From assembly GCA_029555415.1 (NCBI GenBank), contig JAKPSI010000119.1, positions 1-64,000 of the forward strand: 64,000 bases of DNA, written 5' to 3'. The number at the start of each line of letters is the position of its first letter. Position 1 is the first letter of the stretch. Shown here in pieces: positions 36,013 through 55,376 of the stretch. The position numbers were made by a program, and so were the translations under genes. This DNA comes from Bacteroidota bacterium (GTDB taxonomy: Bacteria > Bacteroidota > Bacteroidia > Chitinophagales > Chitinophagaceae). Under the pieces are notes generated by a model. It was not told where the DNA came from. It made no database searches and was given only the letters and a program-made list of their open reading frames with translations.

Positions 36013-37331
36013 GGGCTTTCAAATCCGAGTTTGGTTAATCCTTTTTGTATTTCGGGGCAGCTCATGAAGAGCTTCCACATTAATCCTGTTCTGTAATTCT
36101 CGATCATGACGATGATCGGACCCTGGTCGATCGCTAGGTGACTCTTCGCCACCCATCCCTTCGTTTCATTGAAGGCGTCCACAAATCCGTAAGGCGACCA
36201 GATCTTATCTCCCAGATCATAATAAAAATGTTTCAGCGCCTGCATGCTGTACTGCGGTGTGTACGGAAAGGCACTCAATGCCGCGGTGGGCGATATCGTA
36301 CCCAGATCTTCCGTCGGTGAATGCGCCGCATAACCATTGTAGGTATCACTGGCCGTCAATCCCCAGCAATCCGCACCATAACCCTTGTATTGTTTGGGAT
36401 TGCGTATGCAATGCTCACGATTGATCAGCGTATGATTCGTATTCTGTTCCCAGTAATCCGCATACTGATCTTTCAATCCATGCGGATCTATACCCAGGAA
36501 AGTATAATGCGAGAAGAAGAGCGGACCGCCGTAATCAAAGCCCAGCGGGAGTTTGATGCCGTAAAAGCTTTTACCGTTCCTGAAATAGTTACTGTTCGTC
36601 CAGCCCTCATGATACACCGATGCCGGCACCGGATAACGCTCCCCGCTCGCCGCCATGATATACGTGATCAGGCATTCATTGAATCCATGGATCGCATTGT
36701 TCATCGCCCAGTCATTATTCGGACTCCAGTGCCAGTACAATACATTTTTGCCGCCCTGCGTGAACCAGTTCCATTCAATATCACTCCACATCCAGTTGAT
36801 GCGGTTGCGCAGATCGCGTTCTACCCGGTTATCACCTGTGAAATACTGCCGCGCGCAAAGCAATCCCTCAAATAAGTAAGAAGTCTCTACCAGATCCGCG
36901 CCGTCATCTTTTCTGCTGAAGGGAATGGTCTTACCCGTAGCTCCGTTCAGCCAGTGCGGGAAAGCACCATGATAGGAATTGCTCTTCAAAAGGAAGTTCA
37001 CCATCTTCAGTAAGAACTTCGCCGCCGTATCCCTGCCGATCCATTTTCTTTCCGTCGCCACGATCACACTCATCACGCCAAATCCCGTTCCGCCCACCGC
37101 GCATACTTCATCGCCATATTCATAGGCGATATTGCTGCGCTCTCTGGCCAGTCCGCTCACCGGATGCGCGAAATCCCAGAAATAACGGAAGGTTTGTTGC
37201 TGAACGCGATCCAATAATGCGGAATCACTCAGGCCGGCGGGACGGTCCATCATAGACGGAATGCTGGACTGGGCTTGGATTGTAACGGATGCTACAAAAA
37301 ACGCAACAAGAAATAGAGGGTGCTTAAACAT
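35997..37331 (-). CDS. GH144-type glucanase, copy 2
   Basis: A 444-residue secreted protein with a Sec signal (VAFFVASVTIQAQ). It carries the same block order as copy 1 (QQTFRYFWDFAHPVSG, EVCAVGGTGFG, FPHWLNGATG, DDGADLVETSYLFEG, YWHWSPNNDWAMNN). Of the three paralogues it is the most compact, essentially the bare catalytic alpha/alpha barrel, and therefore the best match for a soluble endo-glucanase. It overlaps copy 1 and follows copy 3 after an AT-rich repeat spacer. Confidence 0.86.
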   Translation of the reverse strand: MFKHPLFLVAFFVASVTIQAQSSIPSMMDRPAGLSDSALLDRVQQQTFRYFWDFAHPVSGLARERSNIAYEYGDEVCAVGGTGFGVMSVIVATERKWIGRDTAAKFLLKMVNFLLKSNSYHGAFPHWLNGATGKTIPFSRKDDGADLVETSYLFEGLLCARQYFTGDNRVERDLRNRINWMWSDIEWNWFTQGGKNVLYWHWSPNNDWAMNNAIHGFNECLITYIMAASGERYPVPASVYHEGWTNSNYFRNGKSFYGIKLPLGFDYGGPLFFSHYTFLGIDPHGLKDQYADYWEQNTNHTLINREHCIRNPKQYKGYGADCWGLTASDTYNGYAAHSPTEDLGTISPTAALSAFPYTPQYSMQALKHFYYDLGDKIWSPYGFVDAFNETKGWVAKSHLAIDQGPIIVMIENYRTGLMWKLFMSCPEIQKGLTKLGFESPWIKK

Positions 37332-37516: not shown

Positions 37517-39184
37517 TTACAAATATGGAGCGCTGAATCCCAGCGACAGCATCCCATTTTTTACTTCGGGACAGCTGGTAAAAAGATTCCATAATAATCC
37601 GGAACGGTAATTCTCGATCATCACAATGATCGGACCCTGATCAATGGCCAGGTAAGAATTCGCGAACCAGAGATCCTTCAGGTTGAACGCGTCATAGAAG
37701 CCATAATCACCCCAGATCTTGTCACCCAGTACATAATAAAAATATTTCATCACCTTCATGGATTCCGTAGGCGTGTAAGGAAATGAGGAGAGAGCTGCCG
37801 TAGGTGCAATGGTGCCGATATCATTCGTGGGTGAACTGGCCGTATAGCCATTCTGGATATCGCTCGCCGTTAATCCCCATACCGAATCACTGTATCCGAA
37901 CCATGAATTGGGATTGCTGCGGCAGTATTCATAATTGATCTTGCTGTGGTTCACCGTTTGGGTCTGATAGTTCGCATACGCGTCACTCAGGCCCACCGGC
38001 TTGATGCCCATGAAAGAATAATGTTCAAAGAACAAGGGGCCGCCGCCCGGAGGACCCAGCGGTAACACATATCCATTGTAATTGCCCCCATTCGTGAAAC
38101 CCGCGCTGCCATTGCCTGTCCAACCCTGTGAATATACAGTTGCCGGCACGCCATGCGTGGTGGAAGAAGCGGCCAGCACATAAGTGATCAGGCATTCGTT
38201 CCAGCCGCGGATGGGCATGTTCATGTCCCAGTTATAATCCGGACTCCAGTGCCAGTACAGCACATTCTGTCCGCCATGGCGGAACCAGTCCCACTCCACG
38301 CCATTCCAGATCGAATTGATATCATTCCGCAGGTTGGTCTCGGCCACACCCGGGTCATTGAAGTATTGTCGGGCACATAACAAGCCTTCCATTAAATAGG
38401 AAGTCTCTACCAGGTCCGCGCCATTGTCCTTCGTACTGAAAGGCACCACGGTTCCCGTAGCACCATTCAGCCAGTGCGGAAACGCGCCATGGAATTTCTG
38501 TGCCGTATTCTTTAAGAATGATACGATGGTCTGCATGCGGGTCAGTCCCTGCGCACGCGTGATGAAATTCCTGCTCACACCCGTCACCATCGCCATGATC
38601 CCGAAACCGGAACCACCGGAAGTAACGATATCACCGGAACTGTTTCGCTCTCTGGCCAATCCGCTCACCGGATGCCCGAAGTCCCAGAAGTATTTGAAGG
38701 TTTGCTGCTGCACCAGGTCCAGCAACGCGTTATCACTGATCACCGGGAATTTGCGGGAAGAATCGATACTCGTATATAAAGTGATCTCCGTACCGGCCAG
38801 CAAAGCGCCACCGGCAGCGGAAGTGATATTATTGACCACTGATACTTTGTACTTGGTCAGGAAGCTCAGGTTGGAAGCGGGTTTCAGGACGATCACACTG
38901 TCAGACGCCTCATAACTGATATTGCAGGAGATATTACCTCCCCCGGCATTCGCTATAGTGACCATACCGGTTACCGTACTGCGTTTGACGGGCGCATTGA
39001 AACGAAAGCGAACAGCCATACCAACAGACGCGTCATAATAAGTGCCCAGCTTATTGCTGTTATTCGTGATGCTCCAGTTGGTCAGGCTCATCGGCGTTAC
39101 TACAGGCGGCGGATCTTTTTTCTTCCTGCAGGATGCCAGTACGAAAAGTACTCCGCACAATATGACAGCTTTCGTTGGATTCAT
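37517..39184 (-). CDS. GH144-type glucanase lipoprotein with Ig-like domain, copy 3
   Basis: 555 residues from the ATG at 39184; the upstream extension to 39253 lies in the GH30 gene region and is rejected. VLFVLASCRKKKD is a lipoprotein signal. Residues about 30-140 look like a bacterial Ig-like (Big_5) domain (MAVRFRFNAPVKRSTVTG, VSVVNNITSAAG), followed by the GH144 barrel (QQQTFKYFWDFGHPVSG, WLNGATGTVVPF, NGADLVETSYLMEG). The lipid anchor and extra domain suggest the surface-exposed member that attacks polymer first, while copies 1 and 2 finish in the periplasm (inference). Confidence 0.86.
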   Translation of the reverse strand: MNPTKAVILCGVLFVLASCRKKKDPPPVVTPMSLTNWSITNNSNKLGTYYDASVGMAVRFRFNAPVKRSTVTGMVTIANAGGGNISCNISYEASDSVIVLKPASNLSFLTKYKVSVVNNITSAAGGALLAGTEITLYTSIDSSRKFPVISDNALLDLVQQQTFKYFWDFGHPVSGLARERNSSGDIVTSGGSGFGIMAMVTGVSRNFITRAQGLTRMQTIVSFLKNTAQKFHGAFPHWLNGATGTVVPFSTKDNGADLVETSYLMEGLLCARQYFNDPGVAETNLRNDINSIWNGVEWDWFRHGGQNVLYWHWSPDYNWDMNMPIRGWNECLITYVLAASSTTHGVPATVYSQGWTGNGSAGFTNGGNYNGYVLPLGPPGGGPLFFEHYSFMGIKPVGLSDAYANYQTQTVNHSKINYEYCRSNPNSWFGYSDSVWGLTASDIQNGYTASSPTNDIGTIAPTAALSSFPYTPTESMKVMKYFYYVLGDKIWGDYGFYDAFNLKDLWFANSYLAIDQGPIIVMIENYRSGLLWNLFTSCPEVKNGMLSLGFSAPYL

Positions 39185-39194
39185 ATTTCTGTTT

Positions 39195-40649
39195 TTACAG
39201 TACCAGCGTACTGATGGAATGCGGCAGCGCCGTGATCTCCGCGGCCTTGCCATTGATCCAGAGATAATACGGGAACTTGTCCTTACCGGTATTCATCACC
39301 ACCACTACCAGTTTGCCATCCGGGTTGCGGAAAGCAGTAGTGAGTAACTGACTGCGGCTCGCGGCACTGCTGACGCGGCTGGCACCCGGTGTAATGAATT
39401 TGGAAAAATGACCGATATAATAATAGGAGTTCGTGAAAATGAGTTTGCCGCTGCGTGTATCCGCATGCACAGGCGCGTAACAGAAATTACCCACGTGGTT
39501 GGGACCGCCGGTTTCATCCAGTAGCACGTTCCAGTCCGTGAAGCCCACCATACCATTGTTGAAATCATTGATCATATTCAGGCCGTATTTCTCACCCAGT
39601 GCCCAGTTGGCATATTTGGTGGAATCGAAACGCTCCGCGCAACCTTCAGTGAAGAACAGGTTGGTGTTCGGATATGCTTCATGTACACGTTTCACATTCT
39701 CGAACATATGGGTTCCGCCACTCCAGTTCTCATACCAGTGGAAACCCATACCCCAGATGTATTTGGCGGCTTCGGGATCATCGAAATAAGTTTGCGCGCG
39801 CTGATACATCAGGTCGCGGTTATGATCCCAAACAATGATCTTCTTGTCTTTCAAACCTTCTTTCTCCATCGTGGGGCCCAGGCTCTTCTTCAGGAAATCT
39901 CTTTCTTCTTCTGCAGTATAGTTGCAGGACTCCCAGGTTTGTTTGGCCATGGGTTCATTCTGTACACTGATGCCCCATACCGGAATGCCATCAGCTTCAT
40001 AAGCCTTGACGAATTTGGTGAAATACATCGCCCAGCTGTCGTAGTATACCGGAAGCAGTTTACCGCCGTGCAGCATTTCTTTATTATCCTTCATCCAGCC
40101 CGGAGGACTCCAGGGGCTCGCAAACAAGGTCAGCTTGCCACCCGCCGCTTTCATGGCCGCTTTGATGAAGGGGATCTTGTATTTTTTATCATGGTCGATA
40201 TTGAATGTTTTCAGTTCCTTGTCGCCTTCAGCAACATACGTATACATATCACTGCTGAAATCGCAGCTGTTGATATTGGTGCGGGCCACGGTATAACCGA
40301 TGCCTTTCTCTTTATCAAAGTACGCATTGAGCAAAGCCTGCTGCTGATCGGCCGGGAGTTTGGCATAAGTCTCCGCAGATGCATCCGTCAGCGCACCACC
40401 GATACCGAGATAGGTCTGATACGTTTTGGAAGGATCCACGAATACACAGATCTGTGTTTCCATCGGCTGGGCCATATCCGTAAAGGCCACGGAATCCACC
40501 GCGCTGAGGCGCAGGTTACTGCTGTCGGCCGTAATAAAGACCTTTACTTTTTTTCCGTCCGTTGAAAAGGCGGGGGCTTTCTCTTTTTCTGAAGTAGTGC
40601 TGCAGGAAACCAATCCCGTTATCACTGCGGCAAGCAGGAATTTATGCAT
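39195..40649 (-). CDS. GH30 family glycosidase, copy 1 (lipoprotein)
   Basis: A 484-residue lipoprotein (AVITGLVSCSTT). The barrel has GIGGALTDASAE, ASPWSPPGWMKDN, VQNEP with acid/base Glu232 and FFTEGC with nucleophile Glu335, in the standard GH30 order, followed by a beta-sandwich. The family holds beta-1,6-glucanases, glucosylceramidases and xylanases; the combination with GH144 favours a beta-glucan. The gene ends 11 bp upstream of the third GH144 gene. Confidence 0.92.
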   Translation of the reverse strand: MHKFLLAAVITGLVSCSTTSEKEKAPAFSTDGKKVKVFITADSSNLRLSAVDSVAFTDMAQPMETQICVFVDPSKTYQTYLGIGGALTDASAETYAKLPADQQQALLNAYFDKEKGIGYTVARTNINSCDFSSDMYTYVAEGDKELKTFNIDHDKKYKIPFIKAAMKAAGGKLTLFASPWSPPGWMKDNKEMLHGGKLLPVYYDSWAMYFTKFVKAYEADGIPVWGISVQNEPMAKQTWESCNYTAEEERDFLKKSLGPTMEKEGLKDKKIIVWDHNRDLMYQRAQTYFDDPEAAKYIWGMGFHWYENWSGGTHMFENVKRVHEAYPNTNLFFTEGCAERFDSTKYANWALGEKYGLNMINDFNNGMVGFTDWNVLLDETGGPNHVGNFCYAPVHADTRSGKLIFTNSYYYIGHFSKFITPGASRVSSAASRSQLLTTAFRNPDGKLVVVVMNTGKDKFPYYLWINGKAAEITALPHSISTLVL

Positions 40650-40671: not shown

Positions 40672-42123
40672 TTACCAGGTATAGGTTCCCGCGGCGCCGG
40701 CAGGCAGCATCACAGTGACCCATTTCCCTTTATAATTGATATTGAAACTCACAGGCGCGTTGCTGTCGTTCATCGTGACCAGCACTTTCTTGCCCGCGGG
40801 TGTTTTGAATGCGGCATTGAAGATCGGTGCATCCTGGTTACTGGCGATCCGTACAGAACCGGCCGGTACGAATTTGGATGCATGCGCTACGATATAATAA
40901 CCCACGTTACGTGTGAAATTGGAACCACTGATAGTGATCGCACCCTTGCATTCTGTACAACCACCGGGTGTATGGATGCTGTAGGTATTGTCACTCGCCA
41001 GGTTCCATTCCAAAGCGTTGCGGCTCCAGTTGCGCATGGTGCCGATGATCACGTTCTTCACGTGCCATTGCAGGTCACCATTGAAAGTGCCGTTCGCGCC
41101 CGTCCACTGTTCCGTGAAATAAAGTGCTTTATCGGGGAAGTTGTTATGCACGGTTGACAACGCGCTCACATCACCACCATATAAATGGAAGGCGGAACCA
41201 TCAATGAATGGTTTCGCACCCGTATCACCCAGTACCGCGATCGGATAATTCGGATTATCACAGTTATGGTCCCAAACGATGATCTTGGTCGTGATACCCG
41301 CAGTCTGGAACGCAGGTCCCAGCGCGTTCTTCACGAAATCAGCTTCCTGTCCGGAACTGAGCACCATGCTCGGGTTGTTACCCCCATGCTGCGGTTCATT
41401 CTGGATCGTCACGGCATCGATATTGATACCGCGCGCTTTCATTTGCTGAATGTATTTCACGAAGTACTGCGCGTATACACTATAATACTGCGACTGCAGC
41501 GTACCGCCCATGGAATTACCGTTATCCTTCATCCATACCGGCGCGCTCCAGGGTGAGCCGAGGATCTTGATATTGGGATTGATGGCCAGGATCTGTTTCA
41601 GGACCGGGACCACATCCAGCGTATCTTTTGACAGACTGAAATTTGCGAGGGTGGGATCGGTTTGTCCGGTCGGCTTATCATCATAACTGAATACCGTCGG
41701 GTTCAGATCGGAAGCACCGATGCTGACACGCAGGTAACTCACACCAATGCTGGTACCGGTATTGCCGAATAATTCCTGCAACAGCGCCGCGCGTTCCGTG
41801 GAACCCATCTGCATGATGAGCTGCGCGCTGCCACCGGTGAGGGTATACCCAAATCCATCAATGGTCTGATAAGAAGTGGCGGAATCCACCGTAATGTTCT
41901 GAAAACTGTTAGCAGTGGTACCAAAGGAAAGCGTGGTGCTCTGCTTCTGCAATTCAGAAGTGCGGTCACCCGTAGTGATCCATGCATCCACATCATTGGT
42001 GCCGGAATTGGGAGGCGGATTGTTGCCACCGCCGCCACCGCCACCATTGTCTTTTTTCTTGCACACACCGAAGATGAACAGACTGCTCAGCAGCAGGATC
42101 ACCGGCACTTTCCTTTTTATCAT
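40672..42123 (-). CDS. GH30 family glycosidase, copy 2 (lipoprotein)
   Basis: A 483-residue lipoprotein (LFIFGVCKKKD) with a Gly-rich then Pro-rich flexible linker (residues 26-42), typical of surface lipoproteins. Barrel motifs: DGFGYTLTGGSA, GSPWSAPVWMKDN, IQNEP with Glu243 as acid/base and YFTEQWT with Glu338 as nucleophile. It is clearly diverged from copy 1, suggesting a different linkage or chain-length preference. It precedes copy 1 by 22 bp. Confidence 0.92.
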   Translation of the reverse strand: MIKRKVPVILLLSSLFIFGVCKKKDNGGGGGGGNNPPPNSGTNDVDAWITTGDRTSELQKQSTTLSFGTTANSFQNITVDSATSYQTIDGFGYTLTGGSAQLIMQMGSTERAALLQELFGNTGTSIGVSYLRVSIGASDLNPTVFSYDDKPTGQTDPTLANFSLSKDTLDVVPVLKQILAINPNIKILGSPWSAPVWMKDNGNSMGGTLQSQYYSVYAQYFVKYIQQMKARGINIDAVTIQNEPQHGGNNPSMVLSSGQEADFVKNALGPAFQTAGITTKIIVWDHNCDNPNYPIAVLGDTGAKPFIDGSAFHLYGGDVSALSTVHNNFPDKALYFTEQWTGANGTFNGDLQWHVKNVIIGTMRNWSRNALEWNLASDNTYSIHTPGGCTECKGAITISGSNFTRNVGYYIVAHASKFVPAGSVRIASNQDAPIFNAAFKTPAGKKVLVTMNDSNAPVSFNINYKGKWVTVMLPAGAAGTYTW

Positions 42124-42127
42124 GATT

Positions 42128-43450
42128 TTATTTTTTCATTTTCAAACGATCCACCACCAGGTCACCCACTTTGGTGCCGTATTCCGTACTCACCAGACAT
42201 GAATTATGGAAGTGGATACCACCATAAAAACGGGCCCAGTTATTCTCGATCGCCGCGGCACGGAATGATTCGAAAGAACGGTTGGCGATGCCGAACTCCA
42301 GTTCTGAAGTATCGGTATAGGCCATATGATCACCATACACACTGGTCAGCGCTTCCGCGCAGGATGCAGAAACCGTACTGTGTCCGCAGGTATATTCAGG
42401 GAACGGCGGTGTTTGCAGATACGGCGCCCAGTTGGGGTCGATGTATTTATTGATCACGGTTTCAGGACGTACACAGTTGCTGCGGAATTTTTCATCCCAG
42501 CACTGAATGAACGCGTCGAAACCGGCGATCGCTGTTTTAGCATACGCACATACCGTTGTTCCGAAATCGGCTTTCGCGGTTTGGGAAGCGATGCCCACGA
42601 TATTCATCCAGTGACCCGGAGGGGAGAATTTCTTGGCCATGAACATCACGTGACCTTCCACGATCATACGCGTACCCAGGTCATCCCAGAACTCCGCGAT
42701 ATGCTGCTGTTCTTTGGTGAGGCTGTCGCGCGCGATCTTCACTTTCATCACTTCCTGATAATACTTGCTGTTCTTATCCTTCATGTTGAAAGCGGGCGGC
42801 GGCGGGGTCCGGAACTGATCGGCACTGTCCATCACCATGGGACGGATCTCATTCCAGTGCGGCTCCAGCGCTTGCTGGTACTGCGGCGGCGTGGGTACCC
42901 AGCGGCCTTCTTCTTCCGTGATATGGTATTTTTCAGCGGTACGCGTTTGCGCATAATTGTCTTTCTTGCTCCAGCGGAGGATGTGGTTACCTACGGAATC
43001 CGCCAGTTGTTTACTGGCTTTCTTCATCTCATCCGTCATGCCATTCGCGGTGGCGATGGAATCCAGTTCCTTCACATAATCCTGCATGCTGCCTTCGGGG
43101 AAGGTCACCGCCTCGCCCACTTTGCAGAAAGCTAACATAGTGGCATAACCGAAATTCACATTGGCGGTATCCTGTTTGGGGATGGCGGGCAGGTGTTTGA
43201 TCTGTCCGGCCAGCGATTGGAACCTTCCGTCGCCCAGCGCCATCACTTCATACGCCGCGATGGTAGCATAGGTGTAGTTACGGCTGGCGATGATGGGCGG
43301 GAAATTATTCTGCATCACCACATTGTTCAGCTGCTTCACTGTTTTGGAGAACAGGATGGGGTCATTGAACACATCATGATAGGCAGGTTTTTGTTTACAA
43401 CTGCCCAGGGCCAGCACGGTTGCCAGCACTAAAAATCGGAAGGGTCTCAT
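42128..43450 (-). CDS. PAP2-superfamily / vanadium-dependent haloperoxidase-like lipoprotein
   Basis: A 440-residue lipoprotein (LALGSCKQK). The three parts of the PAP2/haloperoxidase site can be seen: KFRSNCVRPET (Lys, Arg), PEYTCGHSTVSAS (Ser, Gly, His) and ARFYGGIHFHNS (Arg x5 His). Length and helical N-terminal half fit the vanadium haloperoxidase-like branch rather than short lipid phosphatases. It could be a haloperoxidase or an acid phosphatase. It lies 4 bp from the GH30 copy 2 start, so it is part of the glucan operon. Confidence 0.8.
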   Translation of the reverse strand: MRPFRFLVLATVLALGSCKQKPAYHDVFNDPILFSKTVKQLNNVVMQNNFPPIIASRNYTYATIAAYEVMALGDGRFQSLAGQIKHLPAIPKQDTANVNFGYATMLAFCKVGEAVTFPEGSMQDYVKELDSIATANGMTDEMKKASKQLADSVGNHILRWSKKDNYAQTRTAEKYHITEEEGRWVPTPPQYQQALEPHWNEIRPMVMDSADQFRTPPPPAFNMKDKNSKYYQEVMKVKIARDSLTKEQQHIAEFWDDLGTRMIVEGHVMFMAKKFSPPGHWMNIVGIASQTAKADFGTTVCAYAKTAIAGFDAFIQCWDEKFRSNCVRPETVINKYIDPNWAPYLQTPPFPEYTCGHSTVSASCAEALTSVYGDHMAYTDTSELEFGIANRSFESFRAAAIENNWARFYGGIHFHNSCLVSTEYGTKVGDLVVDRLKMKK

Positions 43451-43488
43451 AACATTATTTTTATAAAGCTACACCCCGCAGGGTTTTA

Positions 43489-46400
43489 TCATTGCAAAAA
43501 AACTAAAGTCCCGTTATTCCGGGCAATGACCATCATTTTCTTTCCATTGATCGTCGTCACCCATTTGCTGTCCCGGATCTCCCCGTCCACACGCGGCATG
43601 CCCTTTTCCACGCTGAAACCGCCCCCTTTCGCATTAAATTGGAAGGCGCTCAGCGGCAGGGCATCATAACGGCCCTCATAAGGCACTACCCCGTAAAAAT
43701 TGCCTCCCAGCACATAATTTCCGGTGGTTCCGGGCTGCAGGGGCGCAAAGGAGAAGACGGGCGACAACTGCAGGTCTTCCGGCAGCAGCACTTTTTTGAA
43801 ATTGCCCTTGCCATCGTTCAGGAAACAGCAGGAACCCAGCTCTTCAGCGGTCAGTTCCTTGTAATCCTTGAACAGGTCATAGAACATGTACTGCACCGTT
43901 TTACCCGCCACCTCACTGTACGTGAGATAAGCTTTCTTCAGTACGGGCAGCGCGCGCTCCAGTTCATCCTTGGCCAGGAAAGTATATTGTTTGCCATCGA
44001 TCGTATAACACATGATCTGTTCCACCATGCCGTTATTGTCGAAGTCCTTTACATATAATTTCAGCGGACCGTTCTTGCCGGACCAGAGTTTGGAATTATG
44101 TCCCCAGTTACCCGCCAGCAGGTCCGGATAGCCATCACTGTTCACATCGGTTGCATAGAGGGATTGCCAGAGGCCCGTTGACTGCGGGATATCCTGCGGT
44201 GTGAACACGCCTTTATTATTGATGAAGATCTTCACCCCCATCCACTCACCTGCTATGGCCAGATCAGGCCACCCATCTTTATTGATATCCGCGAAGGAGG
44301 CGGAAGTGACCATGCCCACATTGATCAGGTTGACCATTTTGGAAGGCGCGATCGCGAATTTGCCCTTGCCGTCATTGAGATAGAGATAAGAACTCTGTGG
44401 CAATCCGTATTTCATCGGGTCAGAAAGAAAACCCACGAATACATCCAGGTCACCATCATGATCCACATCTGCCGTAGTTACACATGATTTATTCTCGAAC
44501 AATTGCGGAATATTGCTCATGGTCAGCGAAAAGTGACCTTTACCATCATTGATATACAAACGGTCGGCCGATGATACATCGCTCGACGGCATTTCATTGC
44601 CGCCACTCACCACCCACAGGTCCTGGAACCCGTCACCATTCGCGTCAAAGAAAGTGGCATCCACATCCTCACATACCGCGAAGTGACTGAACAGGGATGT
44701 GTCAATGGATTGGAAGCTGCCGTTCTTTTGCTGCACCATCAGGGCCCCCGGTTGCAGCTTGGCGCCGCATACATAGATATCATCCAGCCCGTCATTGTTC
44801 ACATCACCCACCGCGATCTTGGGTCCGCGGGTGGACAATTCATGCGGGATGAGGTATTGAATATTGAAATCAATGAAATCATTTTCCTTGTGCTTCCAGT
44901 TCACACCGGCTTGCGCGGTGATATCAGAGAGCAGCGGAGTTGTTTCCGGGAAAAAGGTATTGAACCTGCGGAATAAACCCACAGAGGCATCCGATTCTTT
45001 GAGCGACAGTTGCTGATCGGCCTTTACATTTTTCAGCACCTGAACGTTCTTGTTGGGCCATACGATAACCAGGCTATCTGCCACCGAAGTAGTATCCATC
45101 CCAAAATGCAGGCGGGGTTCACAGGATGATTCAAAGCCGCGTGTCAGCATCAGCTGATTGTACTGTACACCGCTTTTGGTGAACAGGTAGGCTTTGGCAC
45201 CCACAGCAAAATGATTGGCACTGTCGCTGTGCAGGGAAACGGTGAGATAATGTTTTTTCGGTGCGTTGTTCTTCAGGATCACTGCTTCTGAATTGATGCA
45301 GTTCATCACCAGGTCAAGGTTACCGTCATTATCCAGATCGGCATAAGAAGATCCGTTGTAATACCCTTTCATTTTACCGGTACCCCAGTCGTTGCTCACA
45401 TCCGCGAATTTCATTTTGCCATCGCCCCGGTACAGGAACGGATGCGAAGCACCATCGGGCATCGCTTTGATAGCCGGCTCATCATACGCGTCGGTCTTGT
45501 CCATGCCCTTCATTTTGAGGTCGGACACAAAACGCACATAATCCAGGTCCACCGGGCGTTTCACGATACCGCTGGAAATGAAAAGGTCTTTATTTCCATC
45601 ATTATCAAAATCCGCGAACAGGGGACACCAGCTCCAGTCCGTTGCCGGCATACCACTGGCCAGGGCCACATCACTGAAGCTGTCGCCGTTGCCATTATTG
45701 CGCTGCAAAGTGTTACGGGAATACTGGTTCTGATAACCCTTGTACTGCAGTTTCACTTTATAGATATCCATGTTCTCATCACTGCCATAGGTCTTGAGTG
45801 TTTTTTCATCGGGCGGCAGCATGTCCACCGTGACCACATCCAGCTGGCCATCATTATTATAATCCGCGATATCATTACCCATGCTGAAGCGGCTGTAATG
45901 TTTGAAATGGTCTGCGCCGCTCTCCGTGAAAGTACCGTTGCCGTTATTGATGTAATAGTAATCGTTCTCGTGGAAGTCGTTACCCACATAGATATCATCC
46001 CAGCCATCGTTATTCATATCCCCGATCGCGATACCGAGTCCATAACCGAGATTGCTCTGATAGATACCGGCCTGTGCCGATACATCCGTGAATTTATGTG
46101 TAGGCGTATTCAGATCATTGCGGTAGAGGCGGTCGCCGGAAGAAGAATCATATTTGTGGCGGTTGCTGGTATCCACGATGTTGGCGTGGGGATGGTGCGA
46201 CTGATTGAGGATGAAACAATCCAGGTCACCGTCATTATCATAATCAAAGAAGGCGGTCTGTGTGGTGAAGCAGGACGTGTTCAGTCCGTATTCCGCAGCG
46301 CTTTCCGTGAACGTATTGTTCCTGTTGTTGATGTAAAGCTCATTGTGGCCGGTCAGTCCGTATTTATTGCTGACGGTGGACACATAGATATCCAGATAGC

Positions 46401-46782
46401 CATCACCATTCACATCGGCCATGGTGGAACCGGTGCACCAGTCGGACAAACCTTTCACACCGGCCTTGTCCGTGATATCCTCGAACTGGAAATTGCCTTT
46501 GTTCAGGTAGAGTTTATTATTCCCTTTGGAATTGGCGGTAAAATAGATATCCGGCAAACCGTCATTATTGATATCACCGGTGGATACGCCACCACCATTA
46601 TAGAAATAGAGATAGTAGAGGATGCTGAAAAGATGTTTGTTCTCCAGCTTGTTGACAAAGTTTACATGCGTTTGCGAAGAGGGCATTGTTGTGAAAAGAG
46701 TCTGGCTCTTTTTACAGGATCCCAGCACGAACACAAGGGCAATGGCAGCTGCACTGATACGTAACCTACTTGACATGGTCAT
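43489..46782 (-). CDS. FG-GAP/VCBS repeat protein with ASPIC/UnbV domain
   Basis: A 1097-residue lipoprotein (VLGSCKKSQ). It holds many FG-GAP/VCBS repeats with Ca-binding DxDxDG-like loops (DINNDGLPDIYFT, DVNGDGYLDIYVS, DYDNDGDLDCFIL, and others) in an N-terminal and a C-terminal group, with an ASPIC/UnbV-type segment between (HLRTRGFESS-like part around residues 545-610: LTRGFESSCEPRLHFG). Such proteins form beta-propellers on the cell surface and often accompany SusC/D. The ATG overlaps the cytochrome stop by one base (TAATG). Confidence 0.87.
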   Translation of the reverse strand: MTMSSRLRISAAAIALVFVLGSCKKSQTLFTTMPSSQTHVNFVNKLENKHLFSILYYLYFYNGGGVSTGDINNDGLPDIYFTANSKGNNKLYLNKGNFQFEDITDKAGVKGLSDWCTGSTMADVNGDGYLDIYVSTVSNKYGLTGHNELYINNRNNTFTESAAEYGLNTSCFTTQTAFFDYDNDGDLDCFILNQSHHPHANIVDTSNRHKYDSSSGDRLYRNDLNTPTHKFTDVSAQAGIYQSNLGYGLGIAIGDMNNDGWDDIYVGNDFHENDYYYINNGNGTFTESGADHFKHYSRFSMGNDIADYNNDGQLDVVTVDMLPPDEKTLKTYGSDENMDIYKVKLQYKGYQNQYSRNTLQRNNGNGDSFSDVALASGMPATDWSWCPLFADFDNDGNKDLFISSGIVKRPVDLDYVRFVSDLKMKGMDKTDAYDEPAIKAMPDGASHPFLYRGDGKMKFADVSNDWGTGKMKGYYNGSSYADLDNDGNLDLVMNCINSEAVILKNNAPKKHYLTVSLHSDSANHFAVGAKAYLFTKSGVQYNQLMLTRGFESSCEPRLHFGMDTTSVADSLVIVWPNKNVQVLKNVKADQQLSLKESDASVGLFRRFNTFFPETTPLLSDITAQAGVNWKHKENDFIDFNIQYLIPHELSTRGPKIAVGDVNNDGLDDIYVCGAKLQPGALMVQQKNGSFQSIDTSLFSHFAVCEDVDATFFDANGDGFQDLWVVSGGNEMPSSDVSSADRLYINDGKGHFSLTMSNIPQLFENKSCVTTADVDHDGDLDVFVGFLSDPMKYGLPQSSYLYLNDGKGKFAIAPSKMVNLINVGMVTSASFADINKDGWPDLAIAGEWMGVKIFINNKGVFTPQDIPQSTGLWQSLYATDVNSDGYPDLLAGNWGHNSKLWSGKNGPLKLYVKDFDNNGMVEQIMCYTIDGKQYTFLAKDELERALPVLKKAYLTYSEVAGKTVQYMFYDLFKDYKELTAEELGSCCFLNDGKGNFKKVLLPEDLQLSPVFSFAPLQPGTTGNYVLGGNFYGVVPYEGRYDALPLSAFQFNAKGGGFSVEKGMPRVDGEIRDSKWVTTINGKKMMVIARNNGTLVFLQ

Positions 46783-48050
46783 TAGTGTATTTTAACGGCA
46801 ACTGAACTCATGGTCGTATGCTTACCAGAGATCAGTTTCATCACTTTTTCTGTTTCTTCCGGATATACTTTGATATAATGCGTTCTCAATAATGCAGCGG
46901 TGGGTATCTCCGCGCCTTCCATGAATACCGCGACCGCATGTGACTTTTGTTTCGGCATATGGCAATCCACACAATTCTGTTTGATCACTGGACCTGCGGT
47001 AGCCAGCAGTTTACAATCCTTCTCTTTCCCCTGCTGATGACAATTCAAACAGCGTTGTGAGAAGACTTCCACTTTATCTCTTTCGTTCTCGTGCACATTG
47101 TGACAGCTCAGGCAGGTCATTTGTCCAGCCATGAAGCATTTGCTCATCTCCAACAGGCCTAACTGATTACCATGAAGGTCTATATTATCGGCCATTGCCG
47201 GTGTTCCGCTCCTGTAAAAATAATCCATCAGGCTGTCGCCGGCCATATAGGTGAATGAAGGTTTTGTTTTATTGAGCTGACCACCGTGACAAAGCGCGCA
47301 CAGGTCAAGATTCCGCTGGCGTGACAGCTTTCCGGTATTGACGATATAGCGCGCTTCTTTAACGGAAGGATTCTTTGTATGGAATTCCACGTGTTCCGCG
47401 GCAGGGCCGTGGCAACGTTCGCAATCGACACCGTAGATGAATTGATTGTGGTCGAATGTTTCGGGGCGTGTGGCGGTGTCGGATGTTTTCCATGCATAGG
47501 TCATGTGACATTCCAGACAACGGGAAGTAACTACCCTGTTAAATACGATCTTTTTAGGATCGAAGCCGGGGCTGTTGGCCCAGGTACTTTCAGGGGAGAA
47601 ATAAGTGATGGGCATCTGGATCAGGCTGTTGCGGATCCAGGAGAGATAGCTCTGTCCTTTGCGGCCGGAGCCGACAGTGATATCAAAACGGCCGGCACGT
47701 TTTTCCTGGCCGTTGATATAAGCGACCTGAAAGAGGCCGCTGTCCCTTTTTTCCATGACTACTTTGTTCATGGGGTTAAAGGCAAATGCGTTATGTCCGG
47801 GTTCAAAACTACCCAGGATATTATCTTCTTTGGAGGGCTCCGAAGAAAGAAAATGTTCGGTGCGGAGATGTTTTTCGTAGAGGTCTTTATGGCAGGGCGC
47901 ACAGGAAGCGGAGCCGGCGAATGACGGGTATTTATCATTGACCGTTTCCTTCTTGTTATTGTTGGCGGTGCAGCGAACGAGCAGGAATGTACCGGTTACA
48001 ATCGCAAGAATGACGAGGTAGGAAACGCTGACCTTTTTAAGTATTGCCAT
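46782..48050 (-). CDS. Multihaem c-type cytochrome (seven CxxCH)
   Basis: 422 residues from the ATG at 48050; the longer frame upstream crosses the hairpin at 48095-48135 and is rejected. An N-terminal membrane anchor or signal (VSYLVILAIVTGTFLLVRC) is followed by seven haem sites: CAPCH, CLECH, CERCH, CALCH, CLSCH, CLNCH and CVDCH. The pattern resembles cytochrome c554-type multihaem proteins that carry electrons in the periplasm. Its place inside a polysaccharide locus, coupled to the UnbV gene, is unusual; a partner reductase is not present nearby. Confidence 0.88.
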   Translation of the reverse strand: MAILKKVSVSYLVILAIVTGTFLLVRCTANNNKKETVNDKYPSFAGSASCAPCHKDLYEKHLRTEHFLSSEPSKEDNILGSFEPGHNAFAFNPMNKVVMEKRDSGLFQVAYINGQEKRAGRFDITVGSGRKGQSYLSWIRNSLIQMPITYFSPESTWANSPGFDPKKIVFNRVVTSRCLECHMTYAWKTSDTATRPETFDHNQFIYGVDCERCHGPAAEHVEFHTKNPSVKEARYIVNTGKLSRQRNLDLCALCHGGQLNKTKPSFTYMAGDSLMDYFYRSGTPAMADNIDLHGNQLGLLEMSKCFMAGQMTCLSCHNVHENERDKVEVFSQRCLNCHQQGKEKDCKLLATAGPVIKQNCVDCHMPKQKSHAVAVFMEGAEIPTAALLRTHYIKVYPEETEKVMKLISGKHTTMSSVAVKIH

Positions 48051-48094
48051 AATGAAGGGAAGGCGGGAAGGGTCACCGGAGCTTCTGTATAAAA

Positions 48095-48135
48095 TCAGAA
48101 AATGGGCTGACATTGAAGTCAGCCCATTTCTGATA
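48095..48135 (-). terminator. Hairpin between the LamG and cytochrome genes
   Basis: AAATGGGCTGAC and GTCAGCCCATTT form a 12-bp stem around a 6-base loop, extended by ATCAG/CTGAT. On the minus strand it is followed by TTTTCTGATTTTAT. It lies between the susC-susD-LamG group and the cytochrome, so it may end or attenuate transcription and let the surface-binding genes be made in excess. Confidence 0.7.
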
Positions 48136-48165
48136 CACACGATTATTACAACTTAGAAAACTGCT

Positions 48166-49020
48166 TTACAGCTTATTGTTAAAGAGATCCAGAACTTCAG
48201 CATCTGTCAGCACCTTGTTGTACAAGCGGAACTGATCGATACCACCTTTCCAGGACTCCATCCAGTCGTCTGTAGGACCAGGCAGACCTACGTGTTTGTT
48301 CATACCGCCCACAACCAGGTTGAATACGCTGGAAGCGGTCAGTTTGATCTGGCCGTGACCACCCCAGTTCAGGGTATTGATCAGGACGCCATCACGATAG
48401 ATCTTCATGTTAGAAGTAGTTTCATTGTAAGAGAACACCAGGTGGTGCCAGTTACCATCATAGATGCGGGGGATACGGTTGCCGCCAACCAGCTCGAACC
48501 AGTGGTCGCCGCCGTTATCGTTCACATAGAATTTTACAACAGCTGAGTCGGTTGTTGCACCTGAACCAGTGTGGTCGAACAGGATGAACATCGCTGTTGT
48601 GGACCAATAGTCTTTATCAGGCAGGGTGAACGCGAACTGAGCTTTACCGCCAGTGGGAACAGAGTTCTTTTCCCAGAAAGAAACGGTGAAAGATGTTGAC
48701 TTGCTGAAGTCATTCGCATTCAGGTACTGCAGGGCAGCACCACCGGAACCTACATAAGAGGTACCGCGAATACCCGTACCCACTTTGATAGCACTGTTCG
48801 GGAAGAAGCTCGGATAACCCGAGATACTGTCACCGAAGCGGATGTTGATCTGCTTGCCATCTGCGTTGGTAGAATCGAAATTAGCATAAAAACGGAGCGG
48901 GGTCGTCGGGCTCACCGTATGGTCTTTCGGATAGTCACCCAGCGCCGGCCTGTCCATCTTCTGACAACTCATCATCCCTGTTACCAGAGCGATCGCTGCC
49001 AGGCTGTTGAATAATTTCAT
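48166..49020 (-). CDS. LamG-domain lipoprotein (surface glycan-binding candidate)
   Basis: 284 residues from the ATG at 49020 (another in-frame ATG at 49032 adds MIAN). VTGMMSCQK is a lipoprotein signal. Residues about 80-285 form a concanavalin-like LamG jelly roll (FTVSFWEKNS, GNWHHLVFSYNETT, DQFRLYNKVLTDAEV). It sits in the SusE/SusF position directly after SusD and probably binds the glycan at the cell surface. Confidence 0.85.
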   Translation of the reverse strand: MKLFNSLAAIALVTGMMSCQKMDRPALGDYPKDHTVSPTTPLRFYANFDSTNADGKQINIRFGDSISGYPSFFPNSAIKVGTGIRGTSYVGSGGAALQYLNANDFSKSTSFTVSFWEKNSVPTGGKAQFAFTLPDKDYWSTTAMFILFDHTGSGATTDSAVVKFYVNDNGGDHWFELVGGNRIPRIYDGNWHHLVFSYNETTSNMKIYRDGVLINTLNWGGHGQIKLTASSVFNLVVGGMNKHVGLPGPTDDWMESWKGGIDQFRLYNKVLTDAEVLDLFNNKL

Positions 49021-49065
49021 GTTTGCAATCATACTTTATGTTTTAAAAATTGGTATTAATAGATT

Positions 49066-50622
49066 TTACCAAAGCGGGTTTTGTACTAACACACCACCAG
49101 ACAGGTCGATCGCTTTCTGGGGAATGGGATAGTAGTTACAACGGGCAGTATAACCCAGTGTTCCCAGTACGGCCTGAGCATCACCCCAGCGTACGAGGTC
49201 ATCAAAGCGATAGCCTTCCATTGCGAATTCCCAGCGACGTTCGTTCTTGATCGCAGTACGCATAGCGGCCTGAGTTGTGAACGGAATAGCGGGAAGAACA
49301 GCGTTGTTACCACCACGTGCACGGGCACGGATCAGTTCCAGGTTGGCAGCAGCAGTTGCGCCGTCACCCAGTTCGTTGGCAGCTTCAGCTTTCATCAGGA
49401 TCACGTCTGCATAGCGCAGGATCCTGTGGTTGATCCATGCGGGATAACCGGAAGTTGTAGTACCAGTGTACTGACGCATTGCGGGATCAGAGTAAACTTT
49501 TTTGCTCCAGTATTTCTGGTCTAAAGAAGAACCGGGAGCGTAAGCGGGCAGGGTTGCACCGTAACCGCCTGTTGCAGTTCCGCCATCTGACTGACCAGAG
49601 TACAGGATCGTTGCAGCTTTGCGGGGGTCAGTGGGATCCCATGCAGTTTCAAGTACATCGGTAGGCGTGTTCCAGCCCCAACCGAGGTTCCATGCATTGG
49701 ATGCACCACCCTGGCGAACGTTCTGAGAAACGGCCCAGAAAGAACCGTAGTCAGGAGAACCGCCGGAGCCGAGATATGCCTGCATTTCGAGGATAGATTC
49801 TGAACTGTTCTTACCTGCACCACCTACACCATCTTTCCATACATCGGTGAATTTGGGAAGCAGGGAGTACTGACCTGAAGCGATCACCTGATTGGCGAGC
49901 GCCAGGGTCTGAGCCCAGTTACCGCGGAACAGGTAAGTTTTAGCCCACAGTGTTTTAGCAGCACCGCTGGTCAGCCTTCCGGGGAAGGGGTTCTGGCCGG
50001 TTGTACTGTTGAACCAGGAAGCGGGTAGCTGAGTTGAAGCAGCCTGCAGGTCAGCGTCGATCAGCGCATAGATATCAGCCACAGGAGATTTGGGGCGGAC
50101 ACCATCAGCGGCGTTCGTATAGAAGTAGTCGATCTTCGGAATGGGACCGTAAGCTTTTACCAGTTCAAAGTAGGAGTAAGCACGGAAGAAATGTGCTTCA
50201 CCCACGTTGCGCTGAGAAGCGTCGTCGGTCAGATTGAGAGAATCAGCGAAGTACAGCAGCTGATTCGCTTTGTTGATCATATAATAGTGGTCGTTCCAGT
50301 AGGTGTTGGTTGCCCAATCATCCTTTGTGTACTGGAATGTTTCGAACTCTGTATTGATCTCAGCACCATCCGTTGCGCTGGAACCTTTTTGCGCGTCATC
50401 GTCACGGATGCTGTTGAAGTCGAGCCAGGGAAGGGTTGCAAAACCAGCCCAGCTGTTGAATACGGAATACATACCGATCGCCTGTCCGTCAACTACACTG
50501 CCATAATCGGACAACGTTGCGGAGAGTGGCTTTCTGTCAAGAAATTTTTTACAGCTTGTAACACCCGCAAACGCGACAGTTACCAGTAAAAAACTCCAGA
50601 AAATTTTATTTGCTTTTTTCAT
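49066..50622 (-). CDS. SusD/RagB family outer-membrane nutrient-binding lipoprotein
   Basis: A 518-residue lipoprotein (AFAGVTSCKKFLDRKP), with the typical CxKFLDxxP start of SusD proteins. The helical TPR-like N-terminal half contains YYMINKANQLLYFADS and FFRAYSYFELVKAYG; the C-terminal part ends with NERRWEFAMEGYRFDDLVRWG, a strong family signature, and YYPIPQKAID. It caps the SusC barrel and delivers glycan. It is 24 bp downstream of susC. Confidence 0.95.
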   Translation of the reverse strand: MKKANKIFWSFLLVTVAFAGVTSCKKFLDRKPLSATLSDYGSVVDGQAIGMYSVFNSWAGFATLPWLDFNSIRDDDAQKGSSATDGAEINTEFETFQYTKDDWATNTYWNDHYYMINKANQLLYFADSLNLTDDASQRNVGEAHFFRAYSYFELVKAYGPIPKIDYFYTNAADGVRPKSPVADIYALIDADLQAASTQLPASWFNSTTGQNPFPGRLTSGAAKTLWAKTYLFRGNWAQTLALANQVIASGQYSLLPKFTDVWKDGVGGAGKNSSESILEMQAYLGSGGSPDYGSFWAVSQNVRQGGASNAWNLGWGWNTPTDVLETAWDPTDPRKAATILYSGQSDGGTATGGYGATLPAYAPGSSLDQKYWSKKVYSDPAMRQYTGTTTSGYPAWINHRILRYADVILMKAEAANELGDGATAAANLELIRARARGGNNAVLPAIPFTTQAAMRTAIKNERRWEFAMEGYRFDDLVRWGDAQAVLGTLGYTARCNYYPIPQKAIDLSGGVLVQNPLW

Positions 50623-50645: not shown

Positions 50646-53600
50646 TTAGAACGTTACATTCAGACCAAAGGTTGTCACCATCGGGATGGCACCACCACCA
50701 TTATCGAATCCGAAGCCGGTTGCATCACCACCATACTCTGCAGTATAGCCATTGTTATGCTTCCATGTTTTCAGGTTCTGAGCGTTCGCATAAATACGCA
50801 ACGCTTTGATCTTCAGCTTAGAAAGACCCTTCGGATCAACATCGTATCCGATCTGGGCGTTCCTGATCCTGAAGTAGCTGCCATCTTCCATGTTCAGGGT
50901 AGAACCATTATAGTTGAAACGGTCAGCCTGGCTGATGATGGGCTCCCAGTTGGAAGTACCGGCACCATGCCACCTGTCAAGTTTGAAAGCAGGATAGTTA
51001 ACACGCTGGAACGGAGATTCCAGTGATCCCCATGTGCGGAAGACCTCGTTACCGTAAACACCACCAAAGTCAACAGACAGATTGAAGCGTTTGTAAACAA
51101 CGTTGATATTACCACCGTACATGAAATCAGGAGAAGGGTTGCCGATGAATGTGCGGTCTTTCGCATCGATCACACCATCACCATTCAGGTCCTTGAACTT
51201 CAGGTCACCCGCGCGGTAAGCACCAAGTGAAGAAGCCGGGGGAGAAGAAAGGATATCCAGATTGCTCTGATAGAGACCTTCTACAACATAACCCCAGAAA
51301 GAACCGATCGCATAACCGGGAACGGTACGGGCTTCTGCAGAACCGTTGTTCATGAAACCACGGATGATCATACCACCGGGAAGATCTTCCGCAACACCCA
51401 GTACTTTATTCTTCATGAAAGTGATGTTACCATTAACGTTGATCGTCAGGTCGCTGTTCACTTTCTGTGTCCAGGTTGCAGACAGTTCCTCACCCCAGTT
51501 GTGGATCTTACCACCGTTCTCGAGTTTGTTATCCAGACCGAGTGAGCTCAGGTCAACATAGGTCATCATGTCCTTAGTGACCTTAGTATAATAAGTGGCT
51601 TCAAAATGCAGGCGGTTGTTGAAAGCGGTCAGTTCAAGACCGATATCCGTTGCATTCACAGTTTCCCATTTCAGGTCGGGGTTCACACGGTATTGGGGTA
51701 ATGCACCCGTAACCAGGTTGCCGCCGAAAGGAACAACGGTACCGGGTCTCAGACCGGGATATGTCGGATAGTCACCGGCAAAACCGTAGCTGGACTGGTT
51801 ACCCAGTACACCGGTAGAACCTTTTAATTTCAGGTAATTGATGACTTTCTGATTAGCCATGAAATCTTCTTTCGAAACTTCCCAGCCCGCACCTACTGAC
51901 CAGAATTTCTGGTGACGGTTAGCGGTAGCGATACGGGAAGAAGCATCATCACGGAAAGATCCGTTCAGATAATACTTGTTCTTGAAGCTGTAGAGGAAAC
52001 GACCCAGCGCAGAAACGGTAGTTCCTTCTGTCTGGCTGGAAGAAGCGCCTGCCTGACCAACATAGCCGAAGCCATTGTTGAGGTACCACAGTCTTTTATC
52101 GTTGGGGATCGGAAGATCCGCAGCGCCTGAACCTTGTGTAGATGTACCGAACAGCTCGTTAAAGCCATTATAGTAAGTGGTGAAACCACCCAGTACGGTC
52201 AGGTTGTTATCGCCGAATTTCTTCTTGTAAGTCAACAGATAATCCTGCTGGAATTTTTTGTAATTCTGATTGGACTCGAATACACTGGTCTTTGTGTTAT
52301 ACAAATAAGGTGTATTGTTCATCGGGTTGTAAGCATAGTACAGTGGGCTGTACACGCGTGTGCTTACATTGCTCATATCCGCATACCAGTTACCACGGAA
52401 AGTGAAATCCTTCAGGAAGTTCACTTCAGCGTATACGCTACCTACGTTACGGAATTCGTAGCTGATGGTTTTGTCCCATGTATTCTCGATCTCAAGAACA
52501 GGATTCACCACACCTGAGTTCTGGAGGGCAACGTTCAGGCCTGAGTACAGGTTGGCGTTGATACTGTCAGAACCATAAGGATTCTTCACGCGGAAGGGTT
52601 TGGTCAGGGAAGATACGTGCGGCATTACTTTGCGTGCAGCATCCAGTACCCATCCTGCACCATAAGGATTGTGCTGGCGTGTTGAGTTCAGGGTTACGCC
52701 GATCTTGATGTTCTTGTTCACTTTGAATTCATCGCTGAAAGAAAGGAGGATCTTCTCCAGTTTCTCATGCCTGATGATACCTTCATCGGACTGATAACCG
52801 AGGCCGAAAGAGAAACGGTTGTTCTCTGTGCTTCCGGAGATGGTCAGGTTGTCCGTATTGAACTTACCTGTACGTGTTACCGCACTGATCCAATCCGTAT
52901 TTGAGGTAAGCTGAGAGTAACTCGGCGTAGCTACGTTGTTGTTTGCATTCTCTTCAGCGAACAGCTGATCGAACTGACCTGCATTCGCCATTTGAATTTT
53001 ATCAACCAGTTTCTTGAAACCGTAAGAAGTGTTGAAGTTGATGATGGTCTGACCCACTTTCGCTTTCTTGGTAGTGATCGCGATCGCACCGGTCGCACCG
53101 CGTACCCCGAAGATCGCCAGTGAAGACGGGTCTTTCAGGATCTCGATTGACTCGATATCGTTGGGGTTCAGGTAATCGATATTATCGTTCAGGATACCAT
53201 CCACTACATAAAGGGGGTGTACCTGACCGATGGATACGGTACCGCGGATCCTGATATCAGGAGCCTGGCCGGGCGTACCATTATTCACTACATACAGACC
53301 GGGCACCTTGCTTTGCAGGGAAGCCACGGGGTTGGTGTTGGGTTTGTCTGCAACTTCCTTACCGGCGATCTTAACGATAGAACCGGTCAGGTCCCTTTTG
53401 TTGGCGGTACCATAACCGATCACCACTACTTCATCGATCTTTTTAGTCGATTGCTGCAGGGTGATACCGAGTGTGGTTTTACCGGCAACCGCTACTTCAG
53501 TGGTTTCGAAACCAACGTAGCTGAATACCAGGGTTGCATTGTCGGGAACACTGATGGAGAAGTTACCATTTGCGTCTGTAGTGGTACCGGAGCGGGAACC

Positions 53601-55312: not shown

Positions 55313-55376
55313 GCAATCGTTGGTTGTGCGTAAACCATTAAGACAACAAAAGTGAGTAGTTACCCCTAAAAAAAAT

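Follow-up and report, generated by a model that had tools for sequence, protein, structure and literature searches.

The 64,000-nt stretch analysed here (the window; positions 1 to 64,000 of contig JAKPSI010000119.1, assembly GCA_029555415.1, from a Bacteroidota bacterium of the Chitinophagaceae) carries on its minus strand a run of genes read in the following order: an extracytoplasmic function (ECF)-type sigma factor, a FecR-type anti-sigma factor, SusC, SusD, a LamG-domain protein, a heptahaem c-type cytochrome (MHC), an FG-GAP/UnbV protein (UnbV), a haloperoxidase homologue (VCPO), two glycoside hydrolases (GH) of family GH30 and three of GH144 type (Table 1). Adjacent SusC and SusD homologues together with glycoside hydrolases give it the gene content of a polysaccharide utilisation locus (PUL). 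On its sequence it is a probable beta-1,2/beta-1,6-glucan utilisation locus, with UnbV as a constant member and the MHC and VCPO as two optional redox partners. An earlier note had placed the last three genes on one strand between the SusC/D-LamG group and the GH genes, with short spacers and a TAATG junction. The table of open reading frames (ORFs) confirms this: UnbV and VCPO are 38 nt apart, VCPO and the first GH30 4 nt, and LamG and MHC 109 nt, and the TAATG overlap combines the MHC stop with the UnbV start. The identities proposed in that note, a seven-CxxCH cytochrome, an FG-GAP/UnbV protein and a haloperoxidase-like protein, were likewise borne out by motifs, Pfam families and PDB entry 4cit.

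Table 1. Features of the probable glucan utilisation locus in order of transcription (window coordinates)
Feature	Position	Strand	Basis
ECF-type sigma factor	55377..55967	-	profile match
FecR-type anti-sigma factor	54212..55393	-	profile match
SusC-like, N-terminal STN domain	50646..54065	-	profile matches
SusD-like	49066..50622	-	profile matches
LamG-domain protein (Laminin_G_3)	48166..49032	-	Pfam
Terminator/attenuator-like hairpin in LamG-MHC gap	48099..48130	-	fold z -7.5; frequent in relatives
MHC, 424-aa heptahaem c-type cytochrome, predicted N-terminal membrane helix and OcwA-type fold	46782..48056	-	7 CxxCH, AlphaFold, OcwA 6i5b
UnbV, 1097-aa predicted lipoprotein, FG-GAP repeats and ASPIC/UnbV domain	43489..46782	-	PF13517, PF07593, CRTAC1 9etn
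VCPO, vanadium-dependent haloperoxidase homologue, N-terminal LGSC, Cys at active-site Ser	42128..43450	-	PDB 4cit
GH30, endo-1,6-beta-glucanase-like	40672..42123	-	PF02055; NF053856 below cut-off; 5ngk
Second GH30	39195..40649	-	profile matches
GH144-type (PF10091), endo-beta-1,2-glucanase relative	37517..39253	-	Pfam; 5gzh
GH144-type	35997..37331	-	PF10091
GH144-type	34579..36012	-	PF10091; 5gzh

Is the neighbourhood of the MHC conserved? A search covering 99 genomes, with that of the window among the 99, returned 20 other strong MHC places (at least 275 bits) in 15 genomes, along with further weaker, mostly longer cytochromes. Within one family, 96 of 394 sampled genomes and 42 of 101 genera possess the gene. 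Some genomes of the window's own family have an MHC identical to that in records of Ginsengibacter hankyongi, Hydrotalea sp. and Parafilimonas terrae, all genera of the Chitinophagaceae. Together with the best 80 of 436 confirmed loci from a profile scan of named genomes, and with 6 duplicates removed, the 20 places gave 94 distinct MHC loci other than the window; both samples over-represent MHC-bearing loci, the 20 earlier ones having been chosen by MHC score. According to their titles the 80 named loci belong to Bacteroidota, mostly Chitinophagaceae where a family or genus is given, other taxa being Mucilaginibacter, Pedobacter, Chryseolinea and a Flammeovirgaceae bacterium. Carriers include Flavisolibacter nicotianae X7X (L059), Parafilimonas terrae DSM 28286 (L132) and Puia dinghuensis CGMCC 1.15448 (L127).

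SusC/D, UnbV or GH144/GH30 genes accompany the cytochrome in 83 of the 94 loci, and none of them does in the other 11; gene by gene, SusC or SusD is found in 68, any UnbV in 61 and GH144 or GH30 in 64. Given this recurrence, the adjacency is not due to chance. UnbV is the next gene in 52 loci, in 39 of them on the same strand. Thus the co-occurrence elsewhere that the earlier note had asked about does exist: the combination MHC-UnbV-SusCD-GH recurs, and UnbV-VCPO recurs less widely. Distances between MHC and UnbV sequences correlate across 47 loci (r 0.54, a value reached in 0 of 1000 permutations), which species history alone could produce.

The position of the cytochrome gene is flexible. 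On a quick UnbV tree of the 47 loci the gene switched strands four or more times while the neighbourhood was kept, and it runs opposite to its locus in ten loci of the canonical type (L063, L066, L071, L074, L077, L080, L085-L087 and L101). An invertible switch was considered and rejected, since exact inverted words of 9-11 nt in the 400-nt flanks occurred in 8 of these 10 loci versus 6 of 8 unflipped controls; no inverted word of at least 9 nt was found in 2 of the 10 (one of which, L085, has no upstream flank) and in 2 of the 8. In L081, L094, L095, L097 and L100 its place is among the GH genes. Other PULs carry it too: L051, with GH16, and, as a related heptahaem cytochrome, eight SusC-SusD-GH30 loci of Pedobacter (L126, L128-L131, L133-L135). 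Its neighbours in L128 are a GH5-CBM35 protein on one side and, on the other, a TonB receptor and then a DUF4249 protein.

Two further candidates were discarded. ORFs of about 583 aa beside the MHC, considered as sugar oxidases, proved to be a GH5-CBM35 protein (L128), a GH43 protein (L061) and a protein with a sorting tail (L089). Longer seven-haem cytochromes were considered as members of the same system, and their 14 short loci (L020-L033) had no adjoining UnbV match in flanks of about 1.5 kb or less. The full ORFs of these longer cytochromes are about 640 aa, and several are followed by an ORF cut by the end of the locus. A separate observation concerns a 905-aa PSCyt1/PSCyt2/PSD1 protein, with a planctomycete-type cytochrome domain, near the MHC at L100:12308-15025; its clustered relatives in L081, L094 and L097 are near the MHC as well. 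Besides MHC, UnbV and VCPO, the redox families among 47 scanned neighbour proteins were PSCyt1 (L100), Gfo/Idh/MocA (L053) and a 2-hydroxyacid dehydrogenase (L128).

A census anchored on UnbV gave a different view of the same genes. At a threshold of 1400 bits, 87 of the 394 family genomes contain 89 loci with a UnbV orthologue; at most two UnbV candidates were scored per genome, so that orthologues may be missed. An MHC lies within 12 kb of UnbV in 43 of the 89, within 500 bp in 38, and on the opposite strand in 5 of those 38. A VCPO lies within 500 bp in only 5 (one with an MHC, four without), and one more is 6.7 kb away. These counts compare the 89 UnbV places with 85 of 125 MHC matches and 20 VCPO matches among the matches listed; checked by eye, none of the listed MHC or VCPO matches left unused fell within 12 kb of the 89, and 2 of the MHC-less UnbV loci begin less than 4 kb from the start of a contig. 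Four MHC-less UnbV loci were inspected: L156, L157 and L159 are of the same locus type without MHC or VCPO, and L158 is a different SusCD locus. UnbV is therefore the constant component, and since it often occurs without them, the MHC and VCPO are optional and the trio is no fixed unit. Of the redox module proposed in the earlier note, the linkage stands, but the three-gene unit was too strong a claim: among the 89 UnbV loci the window alone has both partners within 500 bp.

All three genes were also found in two of the 80 named MHC loci, L073 and L082, with the VCPO in the window's position. On the VCPO tree these two and the window form one clade (100/100); on the UnbV tree the window and L073 are apart, and L082 is outside that tree. 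VCPO matches above 700 bits occur in 7 of the 394 family genomes, including the window's. In five of the six others GH30 or GH144 genes come after UnbV-VCPO, with no MHC in the stretch; in one of these five, L171, UnbV was recognised in part. The sixth adjoins GH65. Strict replacement of MHC by VCPO was not supported: in the UnbV-anchored census an MHC is present in 1 of 5 loci with a VCPO in this slot versus 43 of 89 overall, a comparison of small numbers, and L073 and L082 have both genes.

More widely, a listed UnbV match lies within 500 bp of at least 24, and within 10 kb of at least 39, of 74 VCPO genes in the 99 genomes, the first UnbV match each time being on the same strand as the VCPO. 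These are lower bounds, set between 74 VCPO genes of at least 250 bits and 101 of at least 150 UnbV matches among those listed; by eye, none of the 49 unused listed UnbV matches is within 500 bp of the 74, and the VCPO-UnbV pair of L054, in the window's genome, is absent from the count. Chance adjacency would be 0.6% per VCPO, assuming 5 UnbV genes in 4.5 Mb. The window's genome has three VCPO genes, and the other two adjoin UnbV genes as well; on another of its contigs (L136) we found SusC-SusD-UnbV-UnbV with no VCPO or GH65 in the stretch examined. Of 19 loci examined around the next relatives of the window's VCPO (52-69% identity), 10 hold a protein family whose one scanned representative is GH65, and 7 have UnbV genes beside SusC/SusD-like genes.

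A second recurrent locus was seen (L137-L151, for example L140:1849-18848). It comprises SusC/SusD-like genes, two or three UnbV genes, a 309-334-aa protein, GH65, a 187-aa protein, VCPO, a 365-aa protein, in many cases one of 314 aa, another PAP2/VCPO-like protein and a TonB receptor. Pfam gave no match for one representative each of the 187-, 309-, 314- and 365-aa families.

The ORF of the MHC runs to a GTG at 48140, and the ATG at 48056 is the likelier start. Cytochrome c3/c554/c7 families of Pfam are matched above cut-off, the seven CxxCH motifs are invariant across 21 aligned orthologues, and 79 of the 80 named loci have seven haem motifs, the exception (L122) being cut by a contig end. 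An AlphaFold model (pLDDT 88; predicted, without haems) has as its best solved match OcwA of Thermincola potens (6i5b; Z 17.8 over 298 aligned residues, rmsd 3.8 A), followed by the S-layer cytochrome of C. ferrireducens 6qvm (Z 12.7), MccA (10.7) and NrfA (6.6), the last of which would be weak on its own. A fold's absence from the VIA-align rows carries no weight against that fold. A profile match to 6i5b (1.1e-10) agrees, and haem motifs 1-4 of the two proteins align in order. As modelled, the MHC has the characteristic fold of the OcwA/NrfA/HAO superfamily, to which MccA also belongs. Unlike OcwA, with its nine haems, it has seven, and its gene lies in a Bacteroidota glucan locus. The word nonaheme occurs in the OcwA paper, which describes reduction of nitrite, both reduction and oxidation of hydroxylamine, and an open state of haems 2 and 5 (PMC6703420). 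Motif order suggests MHC haem 2 as the counterpart of OcwA haem 2. Besides the haem motifs only five His are invariant (H68, H222, H295, H322 and H393), from which we infer room for two open haems in the MHC.

Where would these proteins reside? A conserved N-terminal Cys is present in 43 of 51 MHC rows and missing from 8; in 37 of those 43 it comes directly after R, K or Q. As this is no standard lipobox, the MHC is more likely a membrane-anchored periplasmic protein. In UnbV the N-terminal Cys follows LGS in the window, and the preceding residue is S, A or G in 33 of 35 sequences; UnbV and VCPO are more likely lipoproteins. The window's genome contains a single match to this MHC and encodes a cytochrome c assembly protein, and a search of it for NapC/NirT gave no match.

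UnbV matches FG-GAP_3 and UnbV_ASPIC well over cut-off and so has the CRTAC1/ASPIC-UnbV domain content. The best solved Foldseek match of its model (pLDDT 84.6) is CRTAC1 (9etn, E 1.4e-27), which has FG-GAP repeats and a UnbV domain in common with it. It differs from CRTAC1 in being about twice as long, in that FG-GAP repeats flank its UnbV domain on either side, and as a predicted bacterial lipoprotein. A CRTAC1 gene adjoining hydrazine-synthase homologues is on record (PMC12758564).

The VCPO aligns over residues 15-438 with the vanadium-dependent haloperoxidase 4cit (E 2e-110), the Zobellia galactanivorans vanadium iodoperoxidase; in Pfam it matches VCPO_2nd alone, at 25.9 bits, under the cut-off of 27. 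The vanadate site of vanadium haloperoxidases consists of Lys, Arg, Ser-Gly-His, Arg and His. Present in the window's protein are W318, K321, R328, G356, H357, R407 and H413, at positions of the vanadate site, and Cys355 replaces Ser. The likeness to 4cit is near full-length with one site residue changed, and the VCPO, a putative haloperoxidase, differs further in belonging to a PUL. The same Cys occurs in 17 of 22 close aligned sequences, the window's counted, and the distant relative in L113 has Ala. PAP2 (PF01569) was not matched at E 0.001 by the VCPO of the window or of L073, and it is matched by that of L113.

The hydrolases bear on the substrate. The first and third of the GH144-type proteins (PF10091, Pfam name Glycoamylase) match the endo-beta-1,2-glucanase structure 5gzh (3.7e-144 and 3.6e-141, respectively). 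The first GH30 aligns with 5ngk (5.9e-81), including the NEP and FTE motifs; 5ngk is BT3312, an endo-1,6-beta-glucanase. Both GH30 proteins score below the curated cut-off of 700 of NF053856, the model for BT3312-type endo-1,6-beta-glucanases (386.9 bits for the first, 257.7 for the second), and by sequence they are of the same GH30 family as that model. A beta-1,2/beta-1,6 glucan is thus the most likely substrate of the locus. Both linkages are found in bacterial periplasmic glucans, and fungal glucans are not known to contain beta-1,2 linkages. The 1,6-beta-glucan PUL BT3309-BT3314 of B. thetaiotaomicron resembles the locus in its SusC/D genes and a GH30 endo-1,6-beta-glucanase relative, but has another regulator, and the available part of its description names no cytochrome, UnbV, haloperoxidase or GH144 (PMC5481569). 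Beside the glucan locus, at window positions 28951-33603, lie a PF01663 phosphodiesterase (28951-30225), a Fic protein and an esterase (32449-33603); phosphodiesterase and esterase could act on glucan substituents.

What might a cytochrome and a haloperoxidase homologue do in such a locus? The haloperoxidase family reacts with small oxidants. Because UnbV neighbours both redox genes and both families react with small oxidants, we favour, tentatively and at somewhat below even confidence, a role of MHC and VCPO in handling oxidants outside the cytoplasm and not in hydrolysis. ECF/FecR and SusC would detect the glucan and induce the locus; its capture and import would fall to SusC/D, LamG and UnbV, and the GH30 and GH144 enzymes would cut it, with MHC and VCPO taking no part in that step. 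The MHC, held in a membrane by its N-terminal helix, could reduce small oxidants such as peroxide or N-oxides through a haem chain of OcwA/NrfA type, or pass electrons on, and the lipoprotein VCPO could remove peroxide with vanadate and a halide. In this way both would protect the function of the uptake apparatus under oxidising conditions, UnbV being their shared docking partner. In Zobellia a vanadium iodoperoxidase was raised on A. nodosum versus alginate and discussed with algal halogen defence (PMC9296495).

Several observations weigh against a role in oxidant handling tied to this locus. Neither MHC nor VCPO is near UnbV in 41 of the 89 orthologous loci, so neither seems needed for glucan use. 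Three of the eight VCPOs known here in this slot also have an MHC, which leaves no strict mutual replacement. The LamG-MHC hairpin may uncouple the genes, the MHC, for want of a typical lipobox, may be an inner-membrane protein, remote from the surface enzymes, and the Ser-to-Cys change might lower haloperoxidase activity.

The earlier note had suggested that the redox genes oxidise an attached lignin- or phenolic-type component. Hypohalous acid from the VCPO and an electron drain through the MHC would then break phenolic, lignin or melanin material on the glucan, in keeping with the homology of the VCPO to vanadium haloperoxidases, the many haems of the MHC, and the PSCyt1-domain protein of L100 with its clustered relatives in L081, L094 and L097. 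We consider this unlikely: no phenol oxidase or lytic polysaccharide monooxygenase (LPMO) family appeared in the scan of 47 of the neighbour proteins, the window's genome has no LPMO_10 match, and the VCPO is absent from most relatives with the locus. In C. pinensis, CAZyme expression was near-identical on high- and low-melanin necromass (PMC11497827); the main text of that paper makes no mention of cytochromes, peroxidases or FG-GAP.

Doubtful to the same degree is that the MHC belongs to a respiratory or extracellular electron-transfer route used during polymer breakdown at low oxygen, with UnbV as outer partner. Its closest solved folds, the cell-surface reductase OcwA and the S-layer cytochrome 6qvm, would fit, but the genome has no NapC/NirT match and a single MHC match, and the VCPO would be left without a role. 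Also improbable, and a little more so, is that the substrate is a bacterial periplasmic-type beta-1,2/beta-1,6 glucan from which the VCPO, as a PAP2-type phosphatase, removes phosphates, the MHC having a separate role. PAP2 phosphatases and vanadium haloperoxidases have a common active site, GH144 and GH30 cover both linkages, the phosphodiesterase and esterase genes are nearby, and an Exo_endo_phos protein of L093 has clustered relatives in L069, L100 and L103. Yet PAP2 is not matched at E 0.001 and a haloperoxidase is the best solved match, both decoration-type genes are outside the operon, and the glucan substituents are putative. That MHC and VCPO are passengers brought by recombination, with no role in glucan use, is least probable: the GH65-type cluster that often (10 of 19 loci) houses the next VCPO relatives, the 41 of 89 UnbV loci without either gene, the 11 of 94 MHC loci without the others and the varying strand and position of the MHC would suit it, but same-strand VCPO-UnbV pairs, an MHC in several PULs and retention through strand changes are hard to obtain without selection, and the MHC-UnbV distance correlation also opposes it, though there species history could suffice.

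PULs are understood as machines for binding, cutting and import. The frequency of the MHC in the family and its frequent linkage to beta-glucan PULs, together with an optional vanadium peroxidase homologue, suggest a redox layer in glycan use. A wider proposal, which we hold to be rather doubtful, is that in glycan loci of Bacteroidota propeller lipoproteins of the UnbV type generally serve as a docking platform, recruiting interchangeable redox enzymes (heptahaem cytochrome, vanadium peroxidase); if so, glycan capture would be physically coupled to extracytoplasmic redox chemistry in a PUL with a redox arm. The main text of the C. pinensis fungal-wall locus paper (PMC10449523) mentions no cytochrome, haloperoxidase, FG-GAP, GH30 or redox, and titles and abstract openings among the literature matches listed, mostly outside subscription journals, gave none on the MHC/UnbV/VCPO combination.

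Finally, we looked at signals between the genes. Counted as a class, terminator-like sites show no enrichment in this region (19 versus 17.6 expected). The motif TTTG-TAnnTTTG, which we take to be the Bacteroidota promoter motif, has 2 hits in the 64 kb versus 1.67 expected, and a sigma-70 scan found 16 versus 21.1 expected; neither was of use. The LamG-MHC hairpin has 13 pairs, and the 81-nt stretch around it folds at -30.9 kcal/mol (z -7.5). In relatives, z is below -3 in 21 of 36 foldable LamG-MHC gaps, 2 of 4 LamG-UnbV gaps, 10 of 30 SusD-LamG gaps and 0 of 8 MHC-UnbV gaps. Strong intergenic hairpins are thus not special to the MHC, and, given hairpins in these gaps, the transporter genes and the genes downstream of them may be expressed at different levels.

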